From Chloroflexota bacterium (GTDB lineage Bacteria > Chloroflexota > Chloroflexia > Chloroflexales > Herpetosiphonaceae), in the NCBI GenBank assembly GCA_020161265.1, contig JAIUOC010000002.1:496001-560000 (forward strand): a stretch of 64,000 nt of DNA. Direction: 5' to 3'. The notes under the pieces were generated by a model. That model did no database searches. It worked only from the letters and a program-made list of their open reading frames with translations, and was not told the origin of the DNA. The translations under genes were made by a program, and so were the position numbers. Shown here one piece after another: positions 9,738 through 15,396 of this stretch (position 1 is its first letter; each line of letters opens with the position of its first letter).

Positions 9738-9904
9738 AGGTTTTGATCCACGAAGGGCACGAAATAAGGCTATGGGCTTTCGGCTTTTGATATCCCAACC
9801 TACTCCCGATAGCCCATAGCCTATACGCAGCTGCGTTAGAGCCTTGTGCCTGAAACCGACCACTCCTATGCTCTATGTTCTATGTTCTTTGCTCTATGTT
9901 CTAT
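9738..9904. repeat. Intergenic short-period repeat block
   Basis: Contains a CACGAAGGGCACGAAAT unit (9-nt period), a GGCTATG GGCTTTC GGCTTTT heptamer run (from about 9768) and a clear heptamer array CTATGTT CTATGTT CTTTGCT CTATGTT (9872-9899) that runs up to the stop codon of the lipoprotein gene. Nothing else is seen in the 292 bp between the two minus-strand genes. Confidence 0.65.
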
Positions 9905-11808
9905 TACTCGCGAATGCCCCAAAACTGCAACTGCCCACGATCAACCGAAACGATCAAGCGTTGATCGGGCGCAATAGTGGCATTTTTGGCACTGAACAAG
10001 GCTTGTCCATCATTAACACGATAGATAATTAGATTTGGTTCAGTTAGGTTATTGTCAAGTGCAGCAGATTGTAGCAGCAACAATTGGCTATCGGGGCTAA
10101 ATTGAATCGCTGGATACCAAGAGCGCGAATCAAACGCTTGACTGCTACTGTGGCACTGAATTGATTGGGTTACTTGTAGGCTTGCGCGATCAAGCACAAC
10201 TGCACAGATATTGCTTGACTCAGAGGGTTGGGTGGCGACGGCCAAGCTTTGACCATCAGCGCTAACGGCCAACGCCAAAGCTGCTTGATTGAGATCGATT
10301 GTTTGCAAAGTTGTGCCTGTGCTCAGCTCAAGCAAACTGACCTGACCTTGCTCAGTAACAAGTGCTAATTGATTTTGATTGGGTACAATCACCAAATCGA
10401 CCAAATAGACTGGATCAAGTTGGCGGGTATAGAGTGCTTGGCCAGCCTGCGAAACATGCAATTCAACCTGATTGCGATTGACCGATTCGACCACAATCTG
10501 TTGGTCGGCATCACCGATAATAAAATTGTAGCCAACATCATCGATGCCATAGAGTTGTTGCTGCCAAAGTTCACTCATTTCACTTAAATTCCACTGGCCT
10601 ACGCCAAGGTTAATCTGGTTGCTATCGCTGCTGAAGTCGGGTTTCGGATTCAAGCGATAGAAGATTGGGCGTGGTATTTCGTAGGCCAAGCTGGTTGGCT
10701 CAAGCTTGAGAATTTGCTGGCCACTGGCAATCGCCAATAATTGGCTATTAGGGCTAAACGTAGGTTGATAATAAACCGGAAACTTGAAGCTTTGGCTATG
10801 CCCATCGGAAAGCGTGACAACCGTCAGCGCTTGATCATCAAATAACAAAGCTTGACTGCTATCGGCGCTAAATCGCAAGTGCTTACTGCTATTGCCTGCA
10901 TAAATAACTTGTTGATCAGCCAATCGAATCAGGCTAACTTTACTGTCGTTTGGTACACCTTCAGGAATCGCAAAACGCGCCTCGATTTGACCATCAGGGC
11001 TGATAATCCGTGGGTTCGGCTGATCGTAATTGGTTGGTTGGGTATTCCAAGTGTAGTCAGTATCGTCAGTTGCTAGGCGTTCAATAAACTCGCCCGTTGT
11101 GGCGTTATAGCGCTCGATCGACCAGATACCTGCCAAGGCTGGATCGCTGCTTACTTCAATTAACGCTTCGATGATTGTATTGTCAGGGCTAACCCGAATC
11201 GCTTTGATCGCACTAGCGCTGCGCACAAAATAGGTTTGTTTTAGCAAGGGTAAGCTATAAACCCCAAAACCCAAGCTAGTTGCCACCACCACAAATTCGT
11301 TATTGGGGGCAAAATCACCGCTTTGTAGCGTGCCTAGGCCGATTGTTTGTAATAGCTCAATTTGTGGCAGCGATGCTTCGTTAATCGGTTGGCTACTACG
11401 GGCTGGCAAACTTGCTGGGAAGGCCAATAAGCCATGAGAATTAGGGTTGATTTGTTGAATCGGGATTGACGGCATTTGCATTAATTGCGGCAAGGGGTTA
11501 TTGGTTTGAACCGAGCTAGCAACTTCAGTTGCAACAAGGGTTGGTTCACTAGTGGCCGTTGCAATTAGCTCTTGGGTTGGGCTTGGCAAAGCCTGAGTTG
11601 GCGCAGTTGTCGCGCTTGGTTGGGCTTGGGTAGGGGCAAGCGTCGCCGAAGCTTGGGCTACTAAGCCTTGAACACTGCTACTGGCCGTAATGTTGGTCGC
11701 GGTTGGTGGCAGGCTTGGGGTTGGTTGGGCTGCTGGCGTGTTTTGGCAAGCACTGATGATCATGATTAAAAGACCAAAACTGAGCCGTTGGGCTGGTTGC
11801 TTGAACAT
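9904..11808 (-). CDS. Secreted lipoprotein with WD40/beta-propeller-like repeats, paralogue 1
   Basis: 634 residues. Lipoprotein signal ending LIMIISAC (lipid Cys 21), then ~100 residues rich in Pro, Thr, Ala and Ser (an extracellular linker), then repeated ~40-residue blades of the kind 'SPDGQ...I.LWD', e.g. ISPDGQIEARF, FSPNSQLLAIA, VSADGQSLAVA, FSPDSQLLLLQ and a closing GQLQFWGIRE. Beta-propellers of this type bind proteins or ligands; no catalytic residues are seen. It is a tandem paralogue of the next gene (same Cys position, same leader, same ending). AAAGGAGGAG lies just before ATG 11808. The ligand is unknown; location is the outer face of the membrane. Confidence 0.85.
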   Translation of the reverse strand: MFKQPAQRLSFGLLIMIISACQNTPAAQPTPSLPPTATNITASSSVQGLVAQASATLAPTQAQPSATTAPTQALPSPTQELIATATSEPTLVATEVASSVQTNNPLPQLMQMPSIPIQQINPNSHGLLAFPASLPARSSQPINEASLPQIELLQTIGLGTLQSGDFAPNNEFVVVATSLGFGVYSLPLLKQTYFVRSASAIKAIRVSPDNTIIEALIEVSSDPALAGIWSIERYNATTGEFIERLATDDTDYTWNTQPTNYDQPNPRIISPDGQIEARFAIPEGVPNDSKVSLIRLADQQVIYAGNSSKHLRFSADSSQALLFDDQALTVVTLSDGHSQSFKFPVYYQPTFSPNSQLLAIASGQQILKLEPTSLAYEIPRPIFYRLNPKPDFSSDSNQINLGVGQWNLSEMSELWQQQLYGIDDVGYNFIIGDADQQIVVESVNRNQVELHVSQAGQALYTRQLDPVYLVDLVIVPNQNQLALVTEQGQVSLLELSTGTTLQTIDLNQAALALAVSADGQSLAVATQPSESSNICAVVLDRASLQVTQSIQCHSSSQAFDSRSWYPAIQFSPDSQLLLLQSAALDNNLTEPNLIIYRVNDGQALFSAKNATIAPDQRLIVSVDRGQLQFWGIRE

Positions 11809-11851
11809 AACTCCTCCTTTGCTGAATGGATCTATCATCTAAGAAGGAGCT
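11809..11851 (-). promoter_or_regulatory. Leader hairpin over the ribosome site, lipoprotein paralogue 1
   Basis: The + strand segments 11809-11825 and 11835-11851 are an imperfect inverted repeat (about 13 of 17 positions). In the mRNA, GCTCCTTCTTAGATGA can pair with the AAAGGAGGAGTT ribosome-binding site, hiding it. A candidate -10 (TACTAT on the minus strand, 11862-11867) would start the RNA just before the hairpin. The better-matched copy is upstream of paralogue 2. Confidence 0.5.
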
Positions 11852-11901: not shown

Positions 11902-13827
11902 CTACGGTTTCAGACCCCATAATTGTAATTGACCACCCTCGATTGATAGATAAAGCTGATTATCGGGTGCGAGCATGCCTTGTTTAATTGCATATTTTGG
12001 CATACCATCGCTCATTTGATACACAATCGCAGTATTTGTTCTTGAATCAATCGGGATGATCATTAAATCAGCAGTATCGATGACTTGAATAGCTACTTTC
12101 TTTCTATATGCCTTATAGTCTAAATTATTGTAAGTAAGCGCAAATTGCTGATCAATCGCCCCAAATGTCCGAATAATACTTAAATCATTGCGATTGAGCA
12201 ATGCTGCAATAATCTCCTGAGGATTTTCTTCGAAACTTACAACAATTTGATCGCCATTACTGCCAAAGGATAATTCTTGAAGTGCATATGGAAATATTTT
12301 GGATTGAACAAATGATTTCCTTGCTAGATCATAGAAATGTAATTCATTATTATTGAGAATAAAACCAATTTGCTCACCATCAGGACTAAAATAGGCATCA
12401 TTCAAGGTGTCGGTAACTGTAAAGCTATTATAGAGCTGCTCGGCTTTAAAAAGCTTTAGCTCAATTGGTTCATTATTTCTAGCAAATCTTTTTTCGCTGG
12501 TTAATAGCCACTCGCTATCACCATGAACGATCGCCATCCCCAAAGCTGCATCCCCGAAAAATGGTAGCCGCTGTTGGCGAATCAAGGCTGGCTCTTGGTT
12601 TACCGACCAAATATTTTCGCCATTGCTGAGCATTTGGCCATCAGGGCTGAAGGTTGGGCGCGTATAGGTACGATACATCGTATCAATTGGTTTATTTGGA
12701 AAGGTTTTGAAAAGTCGGGATTGATTTAAATCGAGCAATTGAAATCCATCACTGGTGGCGTATAGGCTGCTGTCGGGGCTGAAATTGCCATAGCTGTAGG
12801 CTGGAATCACTAGCTGTTGCACGGAGCCTGAATTCAAATCGAGTAATTGAATCGATTGCTCAAAAAATACCGCAGCATAGGCACTATCGGGGCTAAATCG
12901 CAGATATAACGATTGTTCATCAGTATAAATCGTGGTCTGATCGATCACGCGCTCGATTGCAACCCCTAAACCAAGCGCTAGGCCTGGTGGTGGCTCAAGA
13001 TGGGCAAAAAACGCTTGATTCGGGCTGTAAGCACCATAGCCGCCACGCTGCGTTGGAATTGATTGGTTTCCAATGAATGGCTCGCTTGAGTCCCATTGGT
13101 TCAGATCAACCATTTGCTCAGTTTGATCGATAAAAGCCCCAGTTTGGCTTGCGTAACGCCGAATTGTGGCCTTAACTGGCGATGGATTGATTAAATCGGG
13201 ATTGACTAATAGATTAATCGTTGCACTATCATCACTAATGCTAAGGTTATAGATTGTGGCTGGCACTTGCGCAACATAGCGTTGCTGCAAACTTGGCAAA
13301 TCATACACAACTAAATTAATCGGCGTTGCAACCGCCATAAATTGATTATTCGGAGCAATCGCGAGATCAATCACCTCGCCCAGCCCAATTTTTTGCAAAA
13401 GGCTTAGGCTAGGCAAGGTTTGCAAATTGATCGTTCCTGCGCTGCGTTCGGGCAATAATGCGGGATTAGCATAGGTCGTTTGATCATTCAAACTAAAGTT
13501 TAGTGGCGGATCAAGCGTCGTTTGCATAAATTCTGGCAGTGGTTCGCTGATCAAAATTGGATCGGGTAATGGTTCAATGCTAGGTTCAAATGGCGTTGGG
13601 TTTGGTGCGATGGTTGGCTCAGTCGTTGGCGTTACCAAAACTTGAGCAGCTTCGGTTGGCATTTCTGGCTCGTTGGTTGGAACCAGCGATGGCGTTGCTG
13701 AATTCTGAGCAAACTGGGTTGGGCTTGTTTGGGCTGTAGCTGTTGGTTGATTTTGGCTTGGTTGACATGCGCTCAATCCAAGCACGAATGTGCCACAAAG
13801 CGCTAATCGAACAAGGTTTTTAAACAT
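11902..13827 (-). CDS. Secreted lipoprotein with WD40/beta-propeller-like repeats, paralogue 2
   Basis: 641 residues, paralogue of the preceding lipoprotein: signal ending VLGLSAC (Cys 21), a ~90-residue Pro/Thr/Glu-rich linker, then blades such as YSPNQAFFAHL, FSPDSAYAAVF, FSPDGQMLSNG, FSPDGEQIGFI, ending GQLQLWGLKP. Both share SLLQKIGLGE/ELLQTIGLGT and APNNQFMAVAT/APNNEFVVVAT at the start of the propeller, so a tandem duplication is likely. The coding sequence is more AT-rich in places than its neighbour. Function unknown; surface-exposed propeller. Confidence 0.85.
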   Translation of the reverse strand: MFKNLVRLALCGTFVLGLSACQPSQNQPTATAQTSPTQFAQNSATPSLVPTNEPEMPTEAAQVLVTPTTEPTIAPNPTPFEPSIEPLPDPILISEPLPEFMQTTLDPPLNFSLNDQTTYANPALLPERSAGTINLQTLPSLSLLQKIGLGEVIDLAIAPNNQFMAVATPINLVVYDLPSLQQRYVAQVPATIYNLSISDDSATINLLVNPDLINPSPVKATIRRYASQTGAFIDQTEQMVDLNQWDSSEPFIGNQSIPTQRGGYGAYSPNQAFFAHLEPPPGLALGLGVAIERVIDQTTIYTDEQSLYLRFSPDSAYAAVFFEQSIQLLDLNSGSVQQLVIPAYSYGNFSPDSSLYATSDGFQLLDLNQSRLFKTFPNKPIDTMYRTYTRPTFSPDGQMLSNGENIWSVNQEPALIRQQRLPFFGDAALGMAIVHGDSEWLLTSEKRFARNNEPIELKLFKAEQLYNSFTVTDTLNDAYFSPDGEQIGFILNNNELHFYDLARKSFVQSKIFPYALQELSFGSNGDQIVVSFEENPQEIIAALLNRNDLSIIRTFGAIDQQFALTYNNLDYKAYRKKVAIQVIDTADLMIIPIDSRTNTAIVYQMSDGMPKYAIKQGMLAPDNQLYLSIEGGQLQLWGLKP

Positions 13828-13870
13828 AACTCCTCCTTAGATGCGTAGGTTTATCATCTAAGAAGGAGTT
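13828..13870 (-). promoter_or_regulatory. Perfect 16-bp leader hairpin over the ribosome site, lipoprotein paralogue 2
   Basis: + strand 13828-13843 and 13855-13870 form a 16-bp inverted repeat; in RNA all 16 pairs form, one of them G-U, with an 11-nt loop. The 3' arm is the ribosome site itself (AAGGAGGAGTT directly before ATG 13827). A conserved -10 (TATGAT on the minus strand, 13881-13886) would start the RNA about at the foot of the hairpin, so the hairpin is nearly the whole leader. It could be a translational switch. Confidence 0.6.
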
Positions 13871-13920
13871 GTTACAAAACATCATACGAGGCTGATAGTT
13901 GGCTTATAACTGGATGAACG

Positions 13921-15198
13921 TTAATCGGCCTGTTCACTCAATAAACGTACTTCAGCAGGTTTGTTGGCCAGCGCGAACAGCGTATCGCCAGCATAGACCA
14001 CATACACATATTCGTTATTGCGATAGCTCCAACGCCGTTGGCCCGACAATGGTGCGCCAAGATTAGCTTCTAGTGCTTTTTTGATAAATGGCAACTTGGC
14101 ATCGAAGCTCGTATTGATACGGCTATACATGGCTCGATTGATCGTTTCGCGTAGGGCGGCATCGGCGGCTGAGGCATTTTGGGCCGCCACAATTGCACTA
14201 AGTTGTTTGACCACCGACCAATTGGTTGTGCCTGTAGCGGCAATTGGTGTATACAGCGCATCAAGCGAGAAAATTTGGGCCGCATAGGCTGCGCCATCGC
14301 CAGCCTGCAAACGGCTGCTATTGCCCAACGGCACACCCACTAGCTTACGTGGCGGTCGGCTAATAAATTGATAAAAGGCTTGATCCGGTCGATAATCCAC
14401 ACCCAACGCACCATAGGTAAATTGCATCAGGGCATTGTAAACATCCTGATCGGTCAAATCGTTGGCACGCAGCACAATATCCCATTGATTGTAAGGGCTA
14501 ATCACAACATCGCGGCCATAGACTTCGCCGGTGTAGCGCACGCCTTTTACGCTAAAATCCATGCCAACCCGAATCGGCGAGCCAAGTTTGTTTTTCAAGG
14601 CATATTGATGAAACATCCAATCAGGTCGATATTCACCCTTAGCCAGTTTATAAACCTCGTTGCGCAGTTGTGCGCCGAGGGTATTGGGACGTGGGCCAAC
14701 GCTTGGGCTGCTTTCATCAAGCAATTTCAAGGTATATTCAACACTATAGCCCCGTGGATCGTCTTTATAGCCAGGCGCAACCGTGCTATGCGCAAAGAAG
14801 TAGTCACGATTGATTGGAATCGCATAGGTATCACGAAAATAGCGAATTAACTCGACGAGTGATTTGGTTTGAGCCGTAGTGATCGGCGTACCATCATTTG
14901 GCCCCTCAACCTCGACCCCGATCGCATATACATTGATTTCGCCGCCGCTATAGCCACGTGCCCAACTGCGCACCCCGGCATGCCAAGCAATATAGGCTTT
15001 TTCATTAACGTAGTGATAGGTTTTACCATCACGCGCAATCAGATAGTTATAACTTGAGCGAACTTCTGGCCGCAGGTTCCATTCGAGTGAGCCATAGCCC
15101 GCTGTTTCGTGCAAAATCACAAATTCGGGCTTGAAGCTCGTGGTATTACGGGCGGTTTTGTTGGGGGTTTTGTTGAGATACGAGGTATCAAACTGCAT
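13921..15198 (-). CDS. N-acetylmuramoyl-L-alanine amidase (Amidase_2 family)
   Basis: 425 residues. The first ~165 are an Amidase_2/PGRP domain: FVILHETAGYG (zinc His), SYNYLIARDGKTYHYV, AYIAWHAGVRSW, the YAIGVEVEGPN core strand and FFAHSTVAPGYKDDPRG (second zinc His and Asp). It cleaves the bond between N-acetylmuramic acid and L-alanine of peptidoglycan. The remaining ~250 residues contain two similar stretches (YRPDWMFHQYALKNKLGSP and YRPDQAFYQFISRPPRKLVG) and a short C-terminal module (YRNNEYVYVVYAGDTLFAL) that may bind wall. No clear signal peptide from the chosen start (AAGGAG before ATG 15198), odd for a wall enzyme. It may attack prey walls or recycle its own. Confidence 0.85.
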   Translation of the reverse strand: MQFDTSYLNKTPNKTARNTTSFKPEFVILHETAGYGSLEWNLRPEVRSSYNYLIARDGKTYHYVNEKAYIAWHAGVRSWARGYSGGEINVYAIGVEVEGPNDGTPITTAQTKSLVELIRYFRDTYAIPINRDYFFAHSTVAPGYKDDPRGYSVEYTLKLLDESSPSVGPRPNTLGAQLRNEVYKLAKGEYRPDWMFHQYALKNKLGSPIRVGMDFSVKGVRYTGEVYGRDVVISPYNQWDIVLRANDLTDQDVYNALMQFTYGALGVDYRPDQAFYQFISRPPRKLVGVPLGNSSRLQAGDGAAYAAQIFSLDALYTPIAATGTTNWSVVKQLSAIVAAQNASAADAALRETINRAMYSRINTSFDAKLPFIKKALEANLGAPLSGQRRWSYRNNEYVYVVYAGDTLFALANKPAEVRLLSEQAD

Positions 15199-15282
15199 AC
15201 AGGCTCCTTGCATGATGCCAATCATTGCATCATTACTACCGCTCCTAATAATCTCGTTGTTAATGTACTACAAAATGGATAA

Positions 15283-15384
15283 GAACATAGAGCAAAGAAC
15301 ATAGGGGATTGTAATTTTAACCACGAAGAACACGAAGAGCACGAAGCATAATTTTTTATGCTCTATGCTCTATGTTCTATGTTC
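15283..15384. repeat. Composite repeat: facing heptamer arrays around a 9-nt-period array
   Basis: Left arm GAACATA GAGCAAA GAACATA (15283-15303), centre CACGAAGAA CACGAAGAG CACGAAGC (15322-15347), right arm TATGCTC TATGCTC TATGTTC TATGTTC (15357-15384). The arms are inverted copies of one another's unit (GAACATA / TATGTTC). It fills most of the 198-bp gap between the amidase and phosphatase genes. Confidence 0.7.
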
Positions 15385-15396
15385 TCATTCCCCGAT

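Follow-up and report, generated by a model that had tools for sequence, protein, structure and literature searches.

A predicted hairpin over the ribosome site, conserved in the leaders of Herpetosiphon lipoprotein genes

Ribosome-site hairpins and the lipoprotein locus

Leader hairpins that cover a ribosome site are well known, mostly from enteric bacteria, Firmicutes and phages. Among them, RNA thermometers, such as the ROSE and fourU families, are typically weak, imperfect stems around the ribosome site. In T4, a local stem whose 5′ arm lies just upstream covers the ribosome site and/or start codon of gene e (lysozyme) and likewise of soc, 49 and I-TevI. PMC3014915 reports that long gene e transcripts are silent, that short ones without the 5′ arm are translated, and that repression is about 100-fold. 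In the mgtQ-mgtB leader of Salmonella, the ribosome site is sequestered and a very short open reading frame (ORF) lies nearby (PMC8092293). The ribosome site of type I toxin mRNAs, aapA3 among them, pairs with an anti-Shine-Dalgarno segment upstream (PMC6733600).

We analyzed a 64,000-nt stretch of Herpetosiphon DNA, hereafter referred to as the window, in which a lipoprotein gene (gene A) and its paralogue (gene B) lie on the same strand as an amidase gene:

13921-15225, minus strand: N-acetylmuramoyl-L-alanine amidase gene
11902-13827, minus strand: gene A, a lipoprotein of 641 aa with predicted beta-propeller repeats
9904-11808, minus strand: gene B, a paralogous lipoprotein of 634 aa

The gaps between the amidase gene and A and between A and B are exactly 93 nt each. 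The translations of A and B contain LSAC and ISAC, respectively, near their N-termini, which we take to be lipobox-type signals. Matches of both proteins to Pfam beta-propeller families all fall far below the curated cut-offs, and an AlphaFold model was poor (mean pLDDT 51.7, pTM 0.34). Among the matches listed, Foldseek returned largely propeller (WD-repeat) proteins at TM about 0.2-0.3, values that suggest the type of fold alone. On these sub-threshold matches, the data suggest a beta-propeller fold for A and B.

The leader hairpin of these genes is a genus-restricted case of the known kind, the ribosome-site-sequestering leader hairpin. It is unusually long, it is kept between paralogues whose proteins share 29% identity, and it occurs in a Chloroflexota genus. 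With moderate confidence, we propose that the leader acts as a 5′-terminal RNA hairpin that closes the lipoprotein ribosome site, leaving the message translationally off or strongly damped. Our literature searches on the Herpetosiphon transcriptome, on lipoproteins or propellers, and on conserved hairpins in Chloroflexi found nothing on this leader among the papers listed, nor did we find a Herpetosiphon paper mentioning an RNA thermometer.

Structure and conservation of the leaders

The arms and loop of the two leaders are as follows:

13855-13870, minus strand: 5′ arm of the gene A leader, AACUCCUUCUUAGAUG, at −43 to −28 relative to the start codon; 16/16 pairs with 13828-13843
13844-13854, minus strand: 11-nt loop of the gene A leader, whose first bases, AUARA, extend the conserved block
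13828-13843, minus strand: 3′ arm of the gene A leader, CAUCUAAGGAGGAGUU, holding the whole ribosome site AAGGAGG (−11 to −5)
11836-11851, minus strand: 5′ arm of the gene B leader, AGCUCCUUCUUAGAUG
11809-11824, minus strand: 3′ arm of the gene B leader, which includes the ribosome site; 14/16 pairs, two of the upper ones having been lost

The initial annotation described a 16-bp stem with one G-U pair before gene A, its 3′ arm being the whole ribosome site, and our analysis confirms this. The 3′ arm is flush with the ATG at 13827 (minus strand), the whole AAGGAGGAG ribosome site is buried, and all 16 positions pair, 15 as Watson-Crick pairs and one as U-G. The 43-nt hairpin has a predicted folding energy of −22.0 kcal/mol and the 87-nt leader one of −28.2 kcal/mol (z −5.5), with none of 200 shuffles as good. 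The same annotation was right in assigning a weaker version to the paralogue at 11808, where the 43-nt hairpin folds at −15.3 kcal/mol and the 88-nt leader has a z of −3.8. In the B leaders of both genomes that have one, three extra pairs are possible, in which CAU pairs with the AUG itself.

To place these stems in context, we sampled 464 kb of the same genome, in which 119 genes, A and B included, have a Shine-Dalgarno motif. The 16 bp of gene A is the longest stem covering a Shine-Dalgarno motif in this sample, and the 11 bp of gene B is the third longest. When random upstream sequences were set before the 3′ arm of gene A, 16 bp was reached in one of 20,000. The predicted mean pair probability of the hairpin is 0.93-1.0 in the six A-type leaders, and the lower ten pairs of the B leaders are predicted at 0.99-1.00. 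The same fold is predicted for a transcript beginning at −46 and for longer ones, such as read-through of the amidase gene, modeled from −300. In these models, the gene A leader is a ribosome-site-sequestering hairpin, its upstream segment pairing with the Shine-Dalgarno sequence that serves gene A. It is predicted as one dominant hairpin on a lipoprotein message, whereas those of the aapA3 toxin mRNA form transiently, as folding intermediates (PMC6733600).

We note an ATG in frame with gene B, 30 nt before its start and inside the 5′ arm (MIDPFSKGGV before MFK; 11808-11838, minus strand); automatic gene callers may therefore misplace the start of this gene.

A protein search of 31 genomes, among them that of the window (G000), found full-length relatives in 6/6 Herpetosiphon genomes and weak partial matches in three others. 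G000 and G003 carry both genes and G001 carries A only, while G002, G004 and G005 each carry a single gene encoding a B-like protein (67-69% to B of the window, 31% to A). The leader of these single genes is A-like; that of G002 agrees with A at 23/27 upstream positions and with B at 18/27. In these three genomes (L024-L026, L029-L031), gene A is missing and the B-like gene lies directly behind the A-type leader, an arrangement suggesting that A was lost by deletion between the two leader repeats.

The hairpin is found in all eight leaders of the six Herpetosiphon genomes, with 16/16 pairs in six leaders and 14/16 in two, and a search of these genomes found hairpin leaders confined to the lipoprotein gene family. 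Covariance model R1 matched 6/31 genomes, all Herpetosiphon and solely at the lipoprotein locus, its matches on the other strand being the same palindromes. No match was obtained in the other 25 genomes, of which 3 belong to the same family and 22 to the same order, in a search whose first pass scored 150 of 191-765 candidates per genome, so that weak cousins may be missed.

Across the eight leaders, the invariant columns number 14/16 in the 5′ arm, 13/16 in the 3′ arm (15/16 among the six A-type leaders), 6/11 in the loop, 21/47 in the upstream region and 14/45 in the first 45 coding bases. Columns of the 5′ arm are more often invariant than those of loop and upstream region together (14/16 vs. 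27/58, Fisher p 0.003). Within the genome of the window, A and B agree at 27/79 fourfold-degenerate sites, i.e., they are unrelated at synonymous sites, yet their 5′ arms agree at 15/16 positions and their 3′ arms at 14/16. This likeness despite protein and synonymous divergence points to selection and not to chance or recent copying; together with the column conservation, it makes it most likely that the leader is under selection. The A and B intergenic regions form a 99-nt repeat that is 73% identical over its whole length. Gene conversion as the sole cause of the leader likeness is disfavored, because even conversion confined to the leaders would have to halt at the gene boundaries, where the likeness ends.

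Pair changes were counted on six leaders. None of the 16 pairs changed on both sides: 12 never vary, two change to G-U, and neither B leader can form the remaining two. Each of the two substitutions seen in A-type stems preserves its pair by wobble, which lends weak support to pairing, and with no compensatory changes the pairing is conserved, short of proof. As no such change separates RNA from DNA, the inverted repeat could also be read as a DNA operator for a dimeric transcription regulator, in which case it would overlap the ribosome site only incidentally. The near-perfect DNA palindrome adjoins the candidate promoter described below, as an operator might. However, the repeat stops exactly at the start codon, the ribosome site itself makes up one of its arms, gene B has lost the upper half-site on one side, and no further copy of the 5′-arm word above control level was found in the genome of the window. 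We consider an operator quite unlikely.

Predicted cost of opening the ribosome site

With the 5′ arm present, freeing AAGGAGG at 37 °C is predicted to cost 14.0-19.1 kcal/mol across the eight leaders, compared to 2.8-6.2 kcal/mol without it (transcript start at −46). Applying the repression slope of 0.45 mol/kcal published in PMC3936740, we estimate that the 5′ arm would repress gene A about 300-fold and gene B about 150-fold.

Heat was one trigger proposed in the initial annotation, and the stem does cover the ribosome site, the feature that it has in common with RNA thermometers. However, opening the eight leaders is predicted to cost 12.7-17.2 kcal/mol at 45 °C and, even at 70 °C, 6.7-10.7 kcal/mol. 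Warming from 30 to 45 °C lowers the predicted cost for gene A by little, from 20.6 to 17.0 kcal/mol, a 5-fold change that leaves the site shut. At the gathering score, a search of the 64-kb window with Rfam returned only a tRNA; at E up to 5, it returned four chance-level matches, none of them a thermometer. The Herpetosiphon hairpin thus differs from thermometers in being predicted closed to 70 °C and in matching no Rfam family. Given the high opening cost at 45 °C, a stem opened by heat is extremely unlikely, and a heat trigger is disfavored.

The 5′ arm had also been described as mimicking the anti-Shine-Dalgarno end of 16S rRNA. We used the 16S rRNA of H. aurantiacus, which has five such genes, because none was found in the assembly of the window (rated 99.98% complete), probably reflecting an assembly gap or a missing stretch. 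The longest word common to the 5′ arm and the H. aurantiacus 16S 3′ end is the 6-base CTCCTT. This likeness arises because the 5′ arm pairs with the ribosome site, and we see nothing in it beyond that complementarity. Mimicry as a separate feature was rejected, as CTCCTT is all that the two share.

Candidate transcript start and possible reading of the 5′ arm

Three further elements of the gene A leader bear on where the transcript starts and how the hairpin might be opened:

13892-13898, minus strand: CTATCAG, an upstream word invariant in the alignment of the eight leaders
13881-13886, minus strand: candidate −10 TATGAT, with the best mean sigma70-like score; predicted start about −47 to −45, just before the 5′ arm
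13837-13857, minus strand: possible 6-codon upstream ORF MINLRI, in frame with gene A; its stop UAA abuts the ribosome site

We scanned the eight leaders for promoters with standard sigma70 weights. The best mean site, at −59 (score 5.3), reads TATGAT in the six A-type and TACTAT in the two B leaders, and it lies outside the four best sites when the two B leaders are taken alone. The runner-up, at −31 (mean 3.2), is an invariant GATGAT that falls within the 5′ arm. This genome does contain promoters of the sigma70 type: TTGACA-15-19-TANNNT is found 7 times vs. 0.8 expected. The candidate −10 of the initial annotation, which would leave a leader made up almost entirely of hairpin, is present as TATGAT and scores best, but its −35 is poor and the word shows no enrichment in intergenic DNA (13 seen, 14.9 expected). 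These two points and the TACTAT of the B leaders make the promoter a candidate only. Between the conserved promoter-like block and the hairpin lie 10 variable nt, which would suit a transcript start at that place, and CTATCAG is probably promoter or regulator DNA. Transcription would then begin about 45-47 nt before the gene, giving a leader that is almost all hairpin, while a start directed by the −31 site would omit the 5′ arm.

In gene B, the 5′ segment UUAGAUGAUAGA (UUAGAUGAUARA) is kept, with one A to G in G003, though the segment it pairs with has changed. Such one-sided retention hints that the sequence of the 5′ arm may itself be read as well, whether by RNA polymerase, an RNA or a protein.

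Reading by RNA polymerase would resemble the situation at T4 gene e. Long transcripts from the amidase gene would be silent, and a promoter inside the 5′ arm would yield short, translatable messages. This explanation is attractive because it accounts both for the sequence constraint on the 5′ arm, including its retention where the B pairing is lost, and for the nearby upstream gene, which lies 92-93 nt away on the same strand in 6/6 genomes; GATGAT at −31 is, moreover, invariant and second in the scan. We nevertheless regard it as unlikely. The −35 region for GATGAT would lie where the leader is least conserved, with no conserved −35, the site scores 3.2 vs. 5.3 for the one upstream, and intergenic DNA shows no enrichment of the word (12 seen, 12.4 expected). 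The T4 gene escapes through a late promoter whose transcripts lack the 5′ arm (PMC3014915), whereas the best candidate promoter in Herpetosiphon lies upstream of the arm.

The hairpin might also be opened by ribosomes translating the 6-codon ORF at −30 and reinitiating at the gene, a principle published for mgtQ (PMC8092293). The codons AUG AUA RAN CUA NNN AUC UAA are present in 6/6 A-type leaders, with AAC, GAC or GAG as the third codon and M-I-N/D/E-L-x-I-stop as the resulting peptide. However, the start and stop are part of the stem, which would preserve them in any case, and the variable codons change amino acids freely. No ribosome site precedes the AUG, only the pyrimidine-rich arm, and 2/2 B leaders have no stop, leaving the frame open into the gene. 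Lacking its own ribosome site and not being kept in the B leaders, the Herpetosiphon ORF is unlike that of mgtQ-mgtB (PMC8092293), and we consider this route very unlikely.

In our preferred account of a translational brake, the transcript would start just upstream of the 5′ arm, so that the hairpin makes up nearly the entire leader. The hairpin would hold the ribosome site of the lipoprotein message closed, with translation off or strongly damped by default. Less certainly, a factor that reads the 5′ arm (an RNA-binding protein, a helicase or a small RNA) may open the hairpin under some condition; the retention of UUAGAUGAUARA in the gene B leader despite two lost pairs is what suggests such a factor. 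Control by a protein or small RNA is possible. In a search of the same genome for partners, the 17-nt 5′-arm word was found exactly only at the two leaders, and no antisense RNA was seen beyond the palindrome itself. A wider regulon was rejected, as matches to this word with three mismatches number 7 vs. 6 for a reversed-pattern control.

The initial annotation had suggested a translational switch shared by the two paralogues. Its site-hiding leader is indeed common to both and conserved across the genus, but heat as the trigger is not supported and no partner RNA or protein was found. That no trigger or partner was found also suits a static damper or 5′-end stabilizer, which would provide a constant brake or protection from decay without regulation; a start 2-4 nt before the stem, as the promoter scan predicts, would protect the 5′ end. 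This is quite improbable in our view, given that the loop-side bases and the 5′ arm are kept where the B pairing is lost, beyond what a plain stem needs. As far as the brake itself is concerned, a static form and a factor-opened switch both fit, and constant damping explains the pairing as well as a switch does.

An extension of the switch, which we find doubtful, is a genus-specific, default-off device. A dedicated factor would read CUCCUUCUUAGAUGAUARA, open the otherwise unmeltable 16-bp stem and free the lipoproteins of one locus, with the arm possibly doubling as an internal promoter for arm-less, translatable messages. If the leader is a switch, it would be a clean case of opening a stem too stable for heat or ribosomes; if it is a constant brake, it would be an ordinary tuning device.

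In the surrounding DNA, the intergenic stretches at 9767-9904 and 15279-15390 consist of short repeated words (TATGCTCTATGTTCTATG; CCACGAAGAACACGAAG), and TTCGTG is strongly over-represented in sampled intergenic DNA (41 seen, 5.25 expected).
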